From positions 1,984,001 through 2,048,000 of the forward strand of contig NC_013946.1 in the NCBI RefSeq assembly GCF_000024425.1: DNA of 64,000 nucleotides. The letters are read 5' to 3'. This document shows, piece after piece, positions 10,809 through 41,774 of the stretch; within the stretch, counting starts at the first letter, position 1; the number at the start of each line of letters is the position of its first letter. The position numbers and the translations under genes were made by a program. The DNA comes from Meiothermus ruber DSM 1279 (GTDB taxonomy: Bacteria; Deinococcota; Deinococci; Deinococcales; Thermaceae). The notes beneath the pieces were generated by a model. That model saw only the letters and a list, made by a program, of their open reading frames with translations, was not told the DNA's origin and did no database searches.

Positions 10809-12335
10809 TCATTCCCACTCAATGGTAGCCGGTGGCTTGCTGGTGATGTCGTAAACCACCCGCCCAATCTCCGGCACCTGGCGGGTGATTTTGCGGGCCA
10901 CCTCATCTAAGAATTCCAGGGGAAGCCGGGCCCAGTCGGCGGTCATAAAGTCCACGGTGGAGACCGCCCGCAAACCCAGCACATAGCCATAGCTCCGTTC
11001 GTCCCCCACCACCCCCACGCTTTGCATAGGGGTCAGGATGGCAGCCGCCTGTGAGACCTGGTCGTACAGGTTCCAGTCGCGCAGGCTGGAGATAAAAATG
11101 TCGTCGGCCCGGCGTAGAATCTCCAGTTTTTGTGGGGTCACCTCCCCCAGTATGCGAATTGCCAGGCCTGGCCCGGGGAAAGGGTGGCGCATCCGAATGG
11201 GCTCGGGCAAGCCCAGCAGCAAGGCCAGCTCCCGCACCTCGTCTTTGAACAGATAGCGGAAAGGCTCGAGCAGCTCAAACTGCAAATCCTCGGGCAGGCC
11301 CCCCACGTTGTGGTGGCTCTTGATGTTGGCGCTGCCCTCGCCGCTACCCGCTGACTCGATTACATCGGGGTACAGGGTGCCCTGGGCCAGCCATCTATAG
11401 CCCTGGGCCGACAATTGCCGGGCTTCCCGCTCAAAGACCCGGATAAACTCGCGCCCCACAATCTTGCGTTTCTGTTCGGGATCGGTCACCCCTCGCAAGG
11501 CCGAGAGAAACTGCCCGGAAGCCTCTACAACCCGCAGGGCTTTCCCCAGGGGGCGCAGGGCCTGCTCGACCTCCTGGCGCTCACCCAGGCGCAGCAGGCC
11601 ATGGTCTACAAACACCGCGGTCATCCGGTCGCCAATGGCTCGAGCCAGAAGCAGGGCCAGGGTCGATGAGTCCACCCCGCCTGAAACAGCCAGCAGCACT
11701 TTTTCGTCCCCAACCTTCGCCCGGATATCGGCGATCAGGTGCTCCAGGGTGTGCTGGGCCGTCCAGTCGCGGACCACCCCCGCCAGCTCGAGGAAATTCT
11801 CCAGCACCTGCATCCCTTTGGGGCTGTGCACCACCTCGGGGTGAAACTGCACCCCAAAAGTTCGGCCATCGGGCGCGGCAATAGCGGCCACCGGGTTCTC
11901 TTCGGTGCTGGCAATCACCTGCCAGCCTGGGGGTAGTTCGGTAACGGCATCGGAGTGGGACATCCACATCTGTAGCTCCCCCTCGAGGCCAGCAAATAAA
12001 GGGCCGGTGTGGTGCACCAGGTTGGCCTTGCCGTACTCGCGCCGCCCAGCCCGCTCAACCCTGCCTCCAAAGTACTGGGCCAGGTACTGCATTCCGTAAC
12101 AGATGCCCAGGACGGGCCAGCCCTGCTCGAGCACCCCTGGCGCGGGGCGCGGACTGTTGGGTTCGAACACCGAGGCTGGCCCCCCTGAAAGAATAAGGGC
12201 CTGCGGACGTTCGGCCTGAATGCGCTCCAGGCTAGCCGTTCCCGGCAAAATAACCGAATAAGCCCGTAGCTCACGGATGCGCCGGGCGATCAAACGGGTG
12301 TACTGAGAGCCATAATCGAGGATAACGACGCTCAT
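10809..12335 (-). CDS. guaA: GMP synthase (glutamine-hydrolysing)
   Basis: Last step of GMP synthesis, XMP + ATP + glutamine to GMP. 508 residues hold an N-terminal class-I glutamine amidotransferase (nucleophile Cys79 in [11 protein letters not shown]; His and Glu in GVQFHPEVV), an ATP-pyrophosphatase domain with P-loop [10 protein letters not shown], and a C-terminal dimerisation domain ending in the conserved [11 protein letters not shown] 12335 ([13 protein letters not shown]) lies 6 nt after a -10 box. A longer reading would add about 125 unrelated residues. Confidence 0.97.
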
Positions 12336-12341
12336 ACAAAG

Positions 12342-12370
12342 AGCATATCGCCCAAGGCGGTATGCTCCAA
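12342..12370 (-). promoter_or_regulatory. Leaderless promoter of guaA
   Basis: Minus strand TTGGAG (12370-12365), a 17-nt spacer, then TATGCT (12347-12342); the guaA ATG begins 6 nt further on, near the expected transcription start. Confidence 0.5.
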
Positions 12371-12394
12371 ACCGTGCGCCTTGCAGCGGGTCTG

Positions 12395-13807
12395 CTATTG
12401 CAGGCTGATGGTGACCCCGCCGGGGTTGGGCACTTCGATGAGCGATTCCACCGGCGCCCGTCCCTGCACCCGAACACGAATGCGGTAGATACCGGGCCGG
12501 TCGAAGTCCACGCGCCCGGGCAGTTGGGCTATCTCGGTATTCAACGGCATCTGGGAACCCTCTGGGGCCTCCAAGATAGCCAAGCTTGCACCCGGCCCCG
12601 GTGGCTGAAGGCGGAATTCCACCGGATAAACCGCGGTGGCTCCTGGAGAAGGCGTCCTCGAGCGCATCCACCAGCCCAGGCCGGCCAATAGCAGCACCAG
12701 TGGGATCAACCATATCCAGAGCGCAACGGTGCGACGGCTGGGCAAGGGGGGCTCCAGCACCTCGAAGGGGGGCTCGAGCCGCTCCTCAATGCGGATGCGG
12801 CGCGGCGGCGTGCTGGCTGCAGCCGGCTGGGCCGGCTCGTTCACCTCGACATTGAGGCTTTTGCTATGGGTTTGCTTCTCAGCGTCCGGCGCGTCTTGCG
12901 AAGTGGCTTTTGCAGGTCTTTTATCGGGGGTCATTTCGTCTTGCGCCCTCTCACCACACACCGCATCCCCCACCCCCTCACCGCCAGCTCGCGCCCTGCG
13001 GGCCTCGAGCGAAGACGAGGCCCCCTCACCACGCACCGCATCCCCCACCCCCTCACCACCAGCTCGCGCCCTGCGGGCCTCGAGCGAAGACGAGGCCCCC
13101 TCACCACGCACCGCATCCCCCACCCCCTCACCACCAGCTCGCGCCCTGCGGGCCTCGAGGGGATCAGCATGGGGGCGGCTGGGGTCTTGTGCAGGTGGGC
13201 TGGTGCGCACCGCGGCCTGCGGATCAGACGAACTCGACTTCGATGCCGGGGTCTCGCCCTCGAACTCGAGGCGCTCCAGCAGGGCCGTGTAATCGCGGTG
13301 ACCGGCCACATAGTCTTCAAGGGCTTCCCGCCAGGGCAGGGCCGGATAAGCCTCACCCGCAAACACCTTTATGGTGTTGAGCAGGCCAGAAAAATCGCGA
13401 GCATGCTCAGGGTTAGGCACCCCCACCCCACCCAGCCAGATCCGGCTGCCCCTGGCCCAAATCAGCTCAGGAATCACATACCCTACCGGAATATCCCGCT
13501 CTTGCGCCCAGTGGAGTACCGTTACCAACTGTTTACACCACTGCGTCAGGCGGGCTATATCGAGCCGCCCAGCCAGCCAGGCAGTCTTGACCGCCCCCAC
13601 CGGAATCTCGGCAATCCAGGCATCCCCCTCCTGGTCTATCCAGGGAAGGGTGTGCGGTATGGATAGTTCTGGGAGCGGCTTTGCGATGGGTCTAAAGGCC
13701 AGCACATCAATGCCGGTTCGCACATCCTGGCCTTCGAAGGCCTCCATCGCACCTACCCCCGGCAGCACAATGCGCTCCCGTAACAAGTAGTGCCCCAGGC
13801 TTTCCAT
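12395..13807 (-). CDS. Membrane protein with degenerate kinase-like domain, repeat linker and PEGA-like C-terminus
   Basis: No catalytic function assigned. Of 470 residues, about 1-200 resemble a Ser/Thr kinase fold (glycine-loop-like [14 protein letters not shown]; catalytic-loop-like [19 protein letters not shown]), but the VAIK lysine, HRD and DFG residues are not recognisable, so it looks like a pseudokinase. Residues about 216-286 are encoded by an in-frame 75-bp repeat, and about 361-382 form one TM helix ([19 protein letters not shown]). The outer 80 residues resemble a PEGA/beta-sandwich domain. Start ATG 13807 is 7 nt after a -10 box. A sensor or scaffold role is inference. Confidence 0.75.
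12951..13159 (-). repeat. 75-bp tandem repeat, about 2.8 copies, in frame inside a coding region
   Basis: The anchor GCGCCCTGCGGGCCTCGAG recurs at 12991, 13066 and 13141, exactly 75 bp apart. Copies are nearly identical, and each encodes 25 residues rich in Ala, Arg, Gly and Glu ([17 protein letters not shown]...). It forms the linker of the pseudokinase-like protein. Confidence 0.95.
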
Positions 13808-14002: not shown

Positions 14003-14371
14003 ATGGAGTACAAGGTGACCCTCTCCACCGAAGAAATTGTGCGCGGTCTGAAACACTACCGTCGAATTGCCAAGCAGGATGTTCTTCGGGCCCCGGAGAC
14101 ACCGAACCCCGATATCTTCCGTTTACACGCTGAAGCCCGGCGCGAAATCTATGCCAAACTGGCCGAGGTGGCCGAAAACGAAGGCCCGGATGCGGTTGTA
14201 AGTCAGGCCCTCGAGCTGTACCAGCAGCTTCCTTTTGTCACCGGCACGGCTGAAGACATGCACCCGGAGATCAAAGGTCAGGAAAATGCCCTCGAGAACT
14301 TCTTTCTGATGATCGGCCTGGATCCCAAAATTCGCCGGGAAGCCCGCAAGGCACGCAAACCCTTACAATAA
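14003..14371 (+). CDS. Conserved-looking hypothetical protein, 122 residues
   Basis: Family not recognised. A soluble, mostly helical, charged protein (MEYKVTLSTEEIVRGLKHYR...LDPKIRREARKARKPLQ) without membrane segments or metal motifs. ATG 14003 follows AAAGGAGCTAGG. The near-perfect sigma promoter just upstream suggests strong constitutive expression, which is unusual for an unknown gene. A weak hairpin follows at 14390. Confidence 0.75.
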   Translation: MEYKVTLSTEEIVRGLKHYRRIAKQDVLRAPETPNPDIFRLHAEARREIYAKLAEVAENEGPDAVVSQALELYQQLPFVTGTAEDMHPEIKGQENALENFFLMIGLDPKIRREARKARKPLQ

Positions 14372-18203: not shown

Positions 18204-18572
18204 TTGGGAAGAGGGCGCAGCCGCTGGTGGCAACACCAGAGGAAAGTCCGGGCAGCACAGGGCATGATGCCAGCTAACGGCTGGGCGGGGTAACCCGACG
18301 GAATAGTGCAACAGAAAGCAGACGGCCCTCGCCCCAAAGCGAGCGGTCAAGGTGAAACGGTGCGGTAAGAGCGCACCAGTGCCCCTGGTAACAGGGGCAG
18401 CTAGGCAAACCCCATCTGCTGCAAGTCCCACGTCCCGCTTAGGCGGGGCGACACGCTAGGGAGAACTGACCCGGTTCGCTACGACCTGCGGTAGGGACGC
18501 TTGAGGTGAGCGGCGACGCTCATCCCAGAGAGATGGCTGCGGAAACAGAACCCGGCTTACTCCTCTTCCCAA
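18204..18572 (+). ncRNA. rnpB: RNase P RNA, bacterial type A
   Basis: Catalytic RNA that trims tRNA 5' ends. The ends pair (TTGGGAAGAGG at 18204-18214 with CCTCTTCCCAA at 18562-18572). The conserved GAGGAAAGTCCGGGC core (CR I), ACAGAAA (near 18310) and the 3' core AGAGAGATGGCTGCGG...ACAGAACCCGGCTTA are present. About 369 nt, normal for this RNA. A -10 box TACAAT (18192-18197) lies 6 nt upstream. Confidence 0.96.
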
Positions 18573-18586
18573 CCTCGACCTTTCTG

Positions 18587-40145: not shown

Positions 40146-40562
40146 TACGTCTGTTCGCACCACCTCAGCCCGCCGGGCCAGTTCCAGGGTCCACGCGGTC
40201 AGGCCCCGGTGCTCGTTGGCGGCCCGAACCCGCCGGTGGTGGGAATCGTAGTACCACAGGCTGGACCACCGGGCCCGGTGCAGGAAGGCCGCCCATTCGT
40301 CCTTGATGGCCGGGTCGGTCTGTTCCAGTAGGCTCTTGTAGTCCGACCGCCAGAGGCGCAGGGTGTGCCTGGGAATGTTGATGGCGGGCAGTTCCATCAC
40401 CCGTACCAGCAGGTAGCCGGGCCGTTCAATCCGCCCCACCGACCGTTCCACCTCCGGGGCGTGGCCGGTACCGTCAACCTGCCAGGTCTTCAGTCCGGTG
40501 GCCACCCACCAGAGGTATTTGGCCAGGTGTTCCGCGCGCCAGCGTTCCAGGTTGCTATCCAT
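40143..40562 (-). CDS. Hypothetical phage protein, 139 residues
   Basis: Unrecognised soluble protein rich in Trp and Arg (WRAEHLAKYLWWVATGLKTW; ERPGYLLVRVMELPAINIP; ARWSSLWYYDSHHRRVRAA). Overlaps the membrane wHTH gene by 8 nt and is the last gene before the early/late junction; a role beside its neighbour or in late activation is possible but unproven. Confidence 0.6.
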   Translation of the reverse strand: MDSNLERWRAEHLAKYLWWVATGLKTWQVDGTGHAPEVERSVGRIERPGYLLVRVMELPAINIPRHTLRLWRSDYKSLLEQTDPAIKDEWAAFLHRARWSSLWYYDSHHRRVRAANEHRGLTAWTLELARRAEVVRTDV

Positions 40563-41433
40563 GCCCCGCCTCCCTGCGGATCAGACCGTCCGGGGTTTCC
40601 AGTACCAGCCCGGCCTCCACCAGCCGGGCCGTCAGGCGGTACACCGTGGTCTTGGGAATTCCGGTTAGGCGGGCCAGGGTGGACGGACGAAGTGGTACCG
40701 AGGACACGGCATCCAGAATCTGGGCCATTCGGTCGTCCCACTGGACGCTCTGTTCCATTCCCATTCCCGCCTGGGCGGTCTGGATCTGGGCCATTCGGTC
40801 GTCCCACTGGACGCTCTGTTCCATTCCCATTCCCGCCTGGGCGGTCTGGATCTGGGCCATTCGGTCGTCCCACTGGACGCTCTGTTCCATTCCCATTCCC
40901 GCCTGGGCGGTCTGGATCTGGGCCATTCGGTCGTCCCACTGGACGCTCTGTTCCATTCCCATTCCCGCCTGGGCGGTCTGGATCTGGGTGGTGTGGACGT
41001 GGGTCTGCAGATGGATGGTCGGCGTAGGCTCCTTGGCCGCAGCGCTGGGGAGCGGCGGGGTCAGTCGGAGCAGTTCGCCAATGGCCTTCCCGGCCACCAG
41101 GGGGCCCAGGGCAAACAGGCTCTGGGCCAGCACCTCCCAGCCGGGGGCCTCCGCCACCCGGGCCATCGCCAGCAGGTTGCCCAGCCAGACCAGCAGAAGG
41201 AAGAAAATCCCCCCCGCCAGGCTCCAGCGCAGCCGGGGCTCGAGGGTGGAGGCCAGGCTGAGGGTGAACGCCAGCAGCTCGAGGCCCACCGCCAGGCCGA
41301 TGGAGAAGTACGCAGGCAGGTCGCCCAGGCTCAGGTCAAACCACTTGGTCAGGTGGCCCGCCGACATGACCAGAGTGGCAAGGTAGGCCAGGGCCAGCAG
41401 GCCGATCAGGCTATTGCGCAGGCTGGGGTTCAT
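40555..41433 (-). CDS. Four-TM membrane protein with 22-residue repeats and a C-terminal winged-helix domain
   Basis: 292 residues, not a known family. About four TM helices lie in the first 112 residues (IGLLALAYLATLVMSAG; YFSIGLAVGLELLAFTLS; WSLAGGIFFLLLVWLGN; LAQSLFALGPLVAGKAIG). Residues about 149-237 are four almost identical 22-residue repeats (QTAQAGMGMEQSVQ...). The last 55 residues form an IclR/TrmB-like winged helix (LRPSTLARLTGIPKTTVYRL). Four helices would put both ends in the cytoplasm, so this could be a membrane-held regulator. ATG 41433 is chosen; upstream residues lie in the previous gene. Confidence 0.72.
   Translation of the reverse strand: MNPSLRNSLIGLLALAYLATLVMSAGHLTKWFDLSLGDLPAYFSIGLAVGLELLAFTLSLASTLEPRLRWSLAGGIFFLLLVWLGNLLAMARVAEAPGWEVLAQSLFALGPLVAGKAIGELLRLTPPLPSAAAKEPTPTIHLQTHVHTTQIQTAQAGMGMEQSVQWDDRMAQIQTAQAGMGMEQSVQWDDRMAQIQTAQAGMGMEQSVQWDDRMAQIQTAQAGMGMEQSVQWDDRMAQILDAVSSVPLRPSTLARLTGIPKTTVYRLTARLVEAGLVLETPDGLIRREAGHG
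40722..40985 (-). repeat. 66-bp tandem repeat, four copies, in frame
   Basis: GGGCCATTCGGTCGTCCCA recurs at 40722, 40788, 40854 and 40920, exactly 66 bp apart, with essentially no differences among copies. Each copy encodes 22 residues of the linker between membrane domain and winged helix. Confidence 0.97.
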
Positions 41434-41774
41434 GCCCCCTCCTGGATTCCCTGCTGCTTCCGCCGGGCCCGGTAGGCCCGGTTGCTGCAGACCTTGGAGC
41501 AGTACCTGGAGTCCTTGCGCACGGCCACAAACGTCTGGCCGCACCATAGGCATTCCCGTTCCGCCCCGTGGTGCTCGTGGGGTTCCTCCATCGGTTCGTG
41601 GGTCTGTTCATCCCCTTCGGGCTGGGGGTCGGGCTCGGGGTTGACCAGCCAGTCGCTATAGGGCCCGACCAGCCGGGCGATGATCCGCTCGGCGTGTTGC
41701 GCGTCCACGGCATGCAGCGCGTGCATCTCGGTCACGGCGGCCACCAGGCGCACCTTGATCTCGCTCGTGTCCAT
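41430..41774 (-). CDS. Early phage protein with C-terminal zinc-binding motif
   Basis: 114 residues. An acidic, Pro/His-rich middle precedes CLWCGQTFVAVRKDSRYCSKVC (Cys75, Cys78, Cys92, Cys96; shown split: CLWCG and YCSKVC) and a basic tail NRAYRARRK, a pattern seen in small DNA- or RNA-binding zinc proteins. Overlaps the next gene by ATGA. Confidence 0.65.
   Translation of the reverse strand: MDTSEIKVRLVAAVTEMHALHAVDAQHAERIIARLVGPYSDWLVNPEPDPQPEGDEQTHEPMEEPHEHHGAERECLWCGQTFVAVRKDSRYCSKVCSNRAYRARRKQQGIQEGA

Follow-up and report, generated by a model that had tools for sequence, protein, structure and literature searches.

A transmembrane pseudokinase of Meiothermus and its relatives in Deinococcota, a candidate non-catalytic membrane scaffold

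The window analysed here, a stretch of 64,000 nucleotides of the Meiothermus ruber DSM 1279 genome, encodes at 12395..13807 (minus strand) a transmembrane pseudokinase of 470 residues, named PKL in this work, whose family is kept across the Thermus-Meiothermus-Truepera bacteria. We propose, with a probability of roughly 0.6, that PKL is a bitopic membrane pseudokinase acting as a scaffold without catalytic activity. Its N-terminal kinase fold would sit in the cytoplasm and, being devoid of the ATP- and metal-binding residues, of helix C and of the activation segment, would offer a surface to which partners bind. Between this domain and the one transmembrane (TM) helix would run a long, flexible linker and a juxtamembrane motif under strong constraint, and the small outer β-sandwich would contact or sense the envelope. 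The reading with the best support is that a partner binds the pseudokinase domain or the juxtamembrane motif. Bacterial membrane pseudokinases are already known as a kind, and bacterial pseudokinases in general are few and little tested. Because the PKL family is spread widely through a single phylum, lacks a Pfam model, includes living intermediates that display a stepwise loss of kinase parts, and occurs in Thermus, which is amenable to genetics and whose proteins are stable, the role of a kinase fold after the loss of catalysis becomes testable.

The host genome is closed and comprises 3,097,457 bp. The open reading frame of PKL is uninterrupted over the coordinates, strand and frame given in an earlier annotation made from the letters alone (the sequence-only reading), and its ATG start at 13807 is backed by an M-E-x-L-G-x-Y start conserved among the relatives.

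The compact pseudokinase domain (residues 1-185; 13253..13807, minus strand) was recognised from its fold, its profile, and its motif columns compared with nine canonical Ser/Thr protein kinases. AlphaFold2, supplied with 24 sequences from the window and related loci, predicted the domain with a pLDDT of 92 and a pTM of 0.88. The model consists of strands β1-β5, one short helix and one long (84-103), strands β7-β8 and three more helices, the elements being named after kinase nomenclature by our own assignment. No helix follows β3, so helix C is missing, and the activation segment is missing too; the predicted domain nevertheless shows the bilobal kinase fold. The sequence-only reading had named an N-terminal fold unrelated to kinases as the outcome that would speak against it. 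The prediction gave a protein kinase fold, extending over about 185 residues rather than the 200 then supposed. A Foldseek search of the PDB with this model yielded 825 matches with an E of 0.001 or less, the lowest being 4.7e-6, and the best 50 of the 825 were all kinases, with TM-scores by query length of about 0.4-0.6. The top three matches by VIA-align were the pseudokinase of MviN (Z 15.5, 15.4 and 15.1), with RMSDs of 2.7-3.2 Å over 181-186 aligned residues (2.8 Å over 186 for the entry of Z 15.5), followed by other kinases at Z 13.4 and lower.

Kinase homology was also found at the level of sequence profiles, using A2, built from the Thermaceae members, and A7, built from eight members of the deep-branching families f3 and f5. 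The nine canonical reference kinases came from the window's genome (four), a Thermus (one) and genome G108 (four). Comparison with these references by hhalign gave P 4.9e-21 (score 140.3) for A7 and P 6.5e-7 (score 50.7) for A2, and the two PKL profiles matched each other at P 1.1e-11. An unrelated profile, used as a control, reached P 0.026 and 0.062, and 200 column shuffles of each profile reached top scores of 23.9 (A2) and 22.2 (A7). With these controls, the similarity of the N-terminal domain to protein kinases is significant. Searched against solved structures, A7 matched kinases at E 3.5e-6; A2 attained a best E of only 0.12, and the 60 matches listed for it were all kinases. MviN (ActPs3) was not among the matches listed for either profile. 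The window protein had no Pfam match at all and no useful match in NCBIfam, and the Pfam Pkinase model matched PKL relatives below its cut-off (best E 0.057).

The catalytic residues have been lost across the family. The motif alignment comprised 48 PKL members and the nine canonical kinases (the partial L011, L017 and L020 were dropped and one G108 member was added); its 48 PKL rows are related, so the losses are not 48 independent events. The β3 lysine is kept in none of the 48, and 38 have Phe or Tyr in its place, in a register uncertain by one residue, Lys or Arg often standing one position later. The DFG aspartate is likewise kept in none, with Gly in 47 members and a gap in one. Eight members retain the HRD aspartate, all of them in family f5 (8/10 of f5), and ten retain the APE glutamate, in f2/f3 and f5 only; in the helix C column, 48/48 have a gap. 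All nine reference kinases keep the lysine, both aspartates and the APE glutamate. In the window PKL, the equivalent positions are F38 (β3 Lys), V108-G109-Y110 (HRD) and G127-V128-G129 (DFG), and in the Thermaceae members no catalytic column retains its residue. PKL therefore lacks the β3 Lys, HRD Asp and DFG Asp that characterise an active Ser/Thr kinase, and its kinase fold with lost catalytic motifs makes it a pseudokinase. Fold, profile homology and motif columns thus agree with the kinase-like N-terminus without catalytic residues that had been proposed at first sight. PknB-type Ser/Thr kinases carry a TM and an outer sensor domain; the canonical bacterial enzymes share significant profile homology with the kinase-like domain of PKL and differ from it by possessing the Lys, HRD Asp and DFG Asp.

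The following linker (residues 186-335; 12803..13252, minus strand) is delimited by its variation in length and sequence among the relatives and by the highest regional dN/dS, and is probably disordered. It contains an in-frame tandem repeat of 75 bp (12945..13159, minus strand), with 2.9 copies of 25 aa. The core of the repeat, CCTCGAGCGAAGACGAGG, is common to a 74-bp array at C1:1314812-1315048, and a further array related to the repeat, with periods of 74/149 bp, lies at about C1:1692808-1693187. The period of 75 bp is divisible by three, unlike those of the related arrays elsewhere in the genome, and the repeat looks like a genome repeat drawn into the PKL reading frame. The 150-residue linker with its 75-bp repeat, the constrained juxtamembrane motif and the phylum-wide conservation were all absent from the sequence-only reading.

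The conserved juxtamembrane motif (residues 336-358; 12734..12802, minus strand), recognised by its dN/dS, would lie on the cytoplasmic side of the membrane. It is followed by the single TM (residues 359-379; 12671..12733, minus strand), assigned by hydropathy. A Kyte-Doolittle scan located the TM of the window protein at residues 360-378 and found exactly one segment above 1.6 in 44/48 full or partial PKL relatives, in agreement with the single TM noted before. A crude comparison of charges found the N side to be more positive in 26/48 members.

The C-terminal domain (residues 386-470; 12398..12652, minus strand), presumably extracytoplasmic, was characterised by AlphaFold2 and fold comparison. 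It was predicted as a seven-stranded β-sandwich with a pLDDT of 90 and a pTM of 0.77. Foldseek found nothing for this model at E ≤ 0.001. VIA placed transthyretin-like domains first, with a modest Z near 7; the top one was that of carboxypeptidase D (5aq0_B; Z 7.1, RMSD 2.2 Å, 67 aligned residues), a Z that, by the tool's own warning, is also reached by models lacking any clear match. The modelled domain may be called weakly transthyretin-like. The sequence-only reading had described the outer domain as PEGA-like. The window protein has no match at the gathering score of PEGA (PF08308), and among 29 diverse relatives two gave matches at E ≤ 1, the best being L088 (E 0.0052), whose 17.1 bits fall short of the 20.8 required. 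Comparison by hhalign with the PEGA-type domain of the RodZ-like protein of the same genome, taken as a single sequence, gave P 0.099 and a probability of 0.6%. Profile searches thus bore out the kinase homology and not the membership in PEGA; a β-sandwich that is at most PEGA-like is what remains of the earlier description. The RodZ-like protein (C1:1066774) also has a single TM followed by a small outer β domain, and it matches PKL weakly across both (E 6e-5). It differs by a helix-turn-helix, read from its sequence, in place of the N-terminal kinase fold, and was rejected as a PKL paralogue, being a RodZ-like HTH-TM-PEGA protein. At L101:1677-2579 of this genome lies a RodZ-like protein whose HTH, TM and PEGA-type domain were assigned by eye and not by Pfam.

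Comparison with six Meiothermus relatives revealed purifying selection of different strength along the protein. The kinase-like domain has dN/dS values of 0.14-0.24, the juxtamembrane motif 0-0.10, the outer domain 0.04-0.12, and the linker, where one value was not computable, 0.25-0.44. A decaying gene was rejected as an explanation of PKL, the dN/dS being low and the frame open in nearly all members. The constraint on the kinase-like domain, the outer domain and the juxtamembrane motif favours a scaffold, as do the kinase fold, its significant homology and the loss of catalytic residues. PKL might instead be a passive envelope tether, whose outer domain would hold on to the cell wall or S-layer and whose kinase fold would be a stable anchor carrying no signal. 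Complete loss of the catalytic motifs, one TM with a small β-sandwich, and a linker free to vary in length are all consistent with such a tether; however, selection on the kinase-like domain and the juxtamembrane motif is stronger than an inert plug seems to need, and we consider the tether doubtful.

The spread across Deinococcota also argues for the scaffold. PKL was found by sequence search in 49 of 50 Thermaceae genomes. The fiftieth, Meiothermus G018, gave weak matches only, one of them to a RodZ-like protein; guaA is missing there as well (distant matches only), so that the whole block is absent from the assembly and the lack of PKL says little. When a profile of 24 Thermaceae sequences was run against 111 Deinococcota genomes, 88 gave a match at E ≤ 0.001; judged by its family labels, this set seems to be without Deinococcaceae. 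A wider profile of 29 sequences matched 109/111, 97 of them at E ≤ 2e-30, including by construction those of the 111 genomes that had supplied the 29 sequences. Twelve genomes with weaker matches only were excluded from the member count, and two had no match. Many of the weak matches cover only profile positions 43-156 or 274-400; these probably belong to other kinases or to proteins of the RodZ type. The family was absent from the literature searched on Thermus or Deinococcus pseudokinases, PEGA-kinase proteins and bacterial Ser/Thr kinases. A term search of a 2025 review found neither Thermus nor Meiothermus mentioned, and for the pseudokinase families in its section list (ActPs1-3, GLW, CP1, DYD and DLHK) neither that search nor the sections covered gave a description from Thermus (PMC12599244).

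The residues retained in the different families give a picture in which PKL would have been inactive already at its root, with further parts lost in Thermaceae and f4; the DFG aspartate is absent from all PKL lineages seen. A tentative extension, to which we assign little probability, would make PKL an ancestral, phylum-wide receptor-like pseudokinase, inactive from the root and whittled from the fuller f3/f5 fold to the 185-residue core of the Thermaceae. Without an FHA reader, it might take the part of the MviN pseudokinase in trans and couple the flipping of lipid II, or the supply of GMP, to the state of the envelope.

MviN (Rv3910, ActPs3) of Mycobacterium tuberculosis is the nearest functional precedent and the best fold match of the N-terminal domain. 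As described in the review, all its motifs are degraded, its activation loop is deleted, and a TM and then an outer domain follow the pseudokinase (PMC12599244); PKL has these features as well. In mycobacteria, according to the review, phosphorylation of the pseudokinase tail by PknB recruits FhaA and peptidoglycan synthesis is restrained (PMC12599244), and a 2025 paper puts forward the hypothesis that FhaA promotes this synthesis (PMC11898655). MviN differs from the free-standing PKL in being fused behind the MurJ flippase, in an outer domain of the carbohydrate-binding type (PMC12599244), and in acting through an FHA partner. The FHA domain (PF00498) had no match in four of four Deinococcota genomes (G000, G029, G108 and G058), in a search whose control was positive in 6/14. 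Because of this result, the known readout of MviN is unlikely here, and a direct copy of the MviN-FhaA mechanism in PKL hosts is unlikely despite the like anatomy and the four Ser/Thr kinases found above the Pfam cut-off in the window's genome. A second precedent is EssB/YukC of type VII secretion, which the review likewise describes as a membrane scaffold, its cytoplasmic pseudokinase being small, with the motifs degraded and the activation loop shortened (PMC12599244). It belongs to the T7SSb machine of Firmicutes, in which it differs from PKL, and it was not among the VIA-align matches listed for the N-terminal domain.

The likeness to MviN would also allow PKL to be a stand-alone version of its regulatory module, which would control the lipid II flippase MurJ as a separate polypeptide. 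The top fold match and the order of pseudokinase, TM and outer domain, as in mycobacterial MviN in the review's description (PMC12599244), point in this direction. So does the position of murJ, which lies 6.5-6.7 kb from PKL in 23/27 Thermus genomes (it is far in two and on a different contig in two) and 17.6 kb away in Meiothermus G015. In Thermus G029, the gene next to PKL is DUF3108-like (below the cut-off), the one after it we take to be hisD, and an LCP-family gene lies between PKL and murJ. Against MurJ control, murJ is 1.02 Mb from PKL in the window's genome and far from it in G016, G001, G038 and G048; the Thermus linkage may be a single inherited event; and the FHA domain was not found in the four genomes. 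The Z margin of MviN may be partly, or even only, due to the activation segment lacking in both domains. A MurJ regulator is therefore unlikely in our view.

The anatomy and the catalytic loss in 48/48 fit the putative membrane signalling scaffold suggested by the sequence-only reading. Against the scaffold, the phospho-dependent FHA partner of MviN has no counterpart in the four genomes searched, and the most conserved neighbour of PKL, guaA, is a purine gene and not a signalling gene. In the window, guaA (GMP synthase; 10809..12335, minus strand) lies directly downstream of PKL after a gap of 59 bp. The comparison of neighbours, proposed earlier for other Thermaceae, showed that guaA adjoins PKL in most loci outside Thermus. 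Of 34 testable loci there, 30 have PKL immediately upstream of guaA in the same orientation, about 9-250 bp apart: 12/13 in Meiothermus/Calidithermus, 7/7 in f4, 10/10 in f5 and 1/4 in f2/f3. None of nine testable Thermus loci has this arrangement, nor has a further Thermus locus, L115. These counts omit L043, L050 and L061, which stop at the end of a contig; L039 and L040 are almost identical to each other. In addition, purH is near PKL in Meiothermus and f4. PKL could thus be a regulator of GMP synthesis that binds GuaA and couples GTP supply to the state of the envelope. Gene neighbourhood is by itself weak, and PKL was kept where the link was lost, in Thermus and in three of the four f2/f3 loci, which makes such a regulator quite improbable. 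A repurposed enzyme transferring a non-phosphate group is very unlikely, for although SelO (AMP) and SidJ (glutamate) offer precedents among bacterial pseudokinases in the review (PMC12599244) and most f5 members retain the HRD aspartate, the Thermaceae proteins have no catalytic residue and Phe or Tyr has mostly replaced the β3 lysine.

The gap between PKL and guaA (12336-12394) folds as a strong hairpin, with a z of -2.5 for a stretch of 71 nt and 4/200 shuffles equally good; it may act as a terminator or belong to a leader of guaA. On the other side, a conserved ORF of 122 aa (14003..14371, plus strand) is divergent from PKL and neighbours it in Meiothermus, Thermus and f4 loci. It is 80-100% identical across them, which is unusually conserved, and its Thermus copy has no Pfam match. 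Elsewhere in the window, 18205-18575 is a bacterial RNase P RNA of class A, and 40555-41553 encodes a predicted membrane protein of 332 aa with a perfect tandem repeat of 66 bp (22 aa), present in 4.1 copies at 40718-40988.
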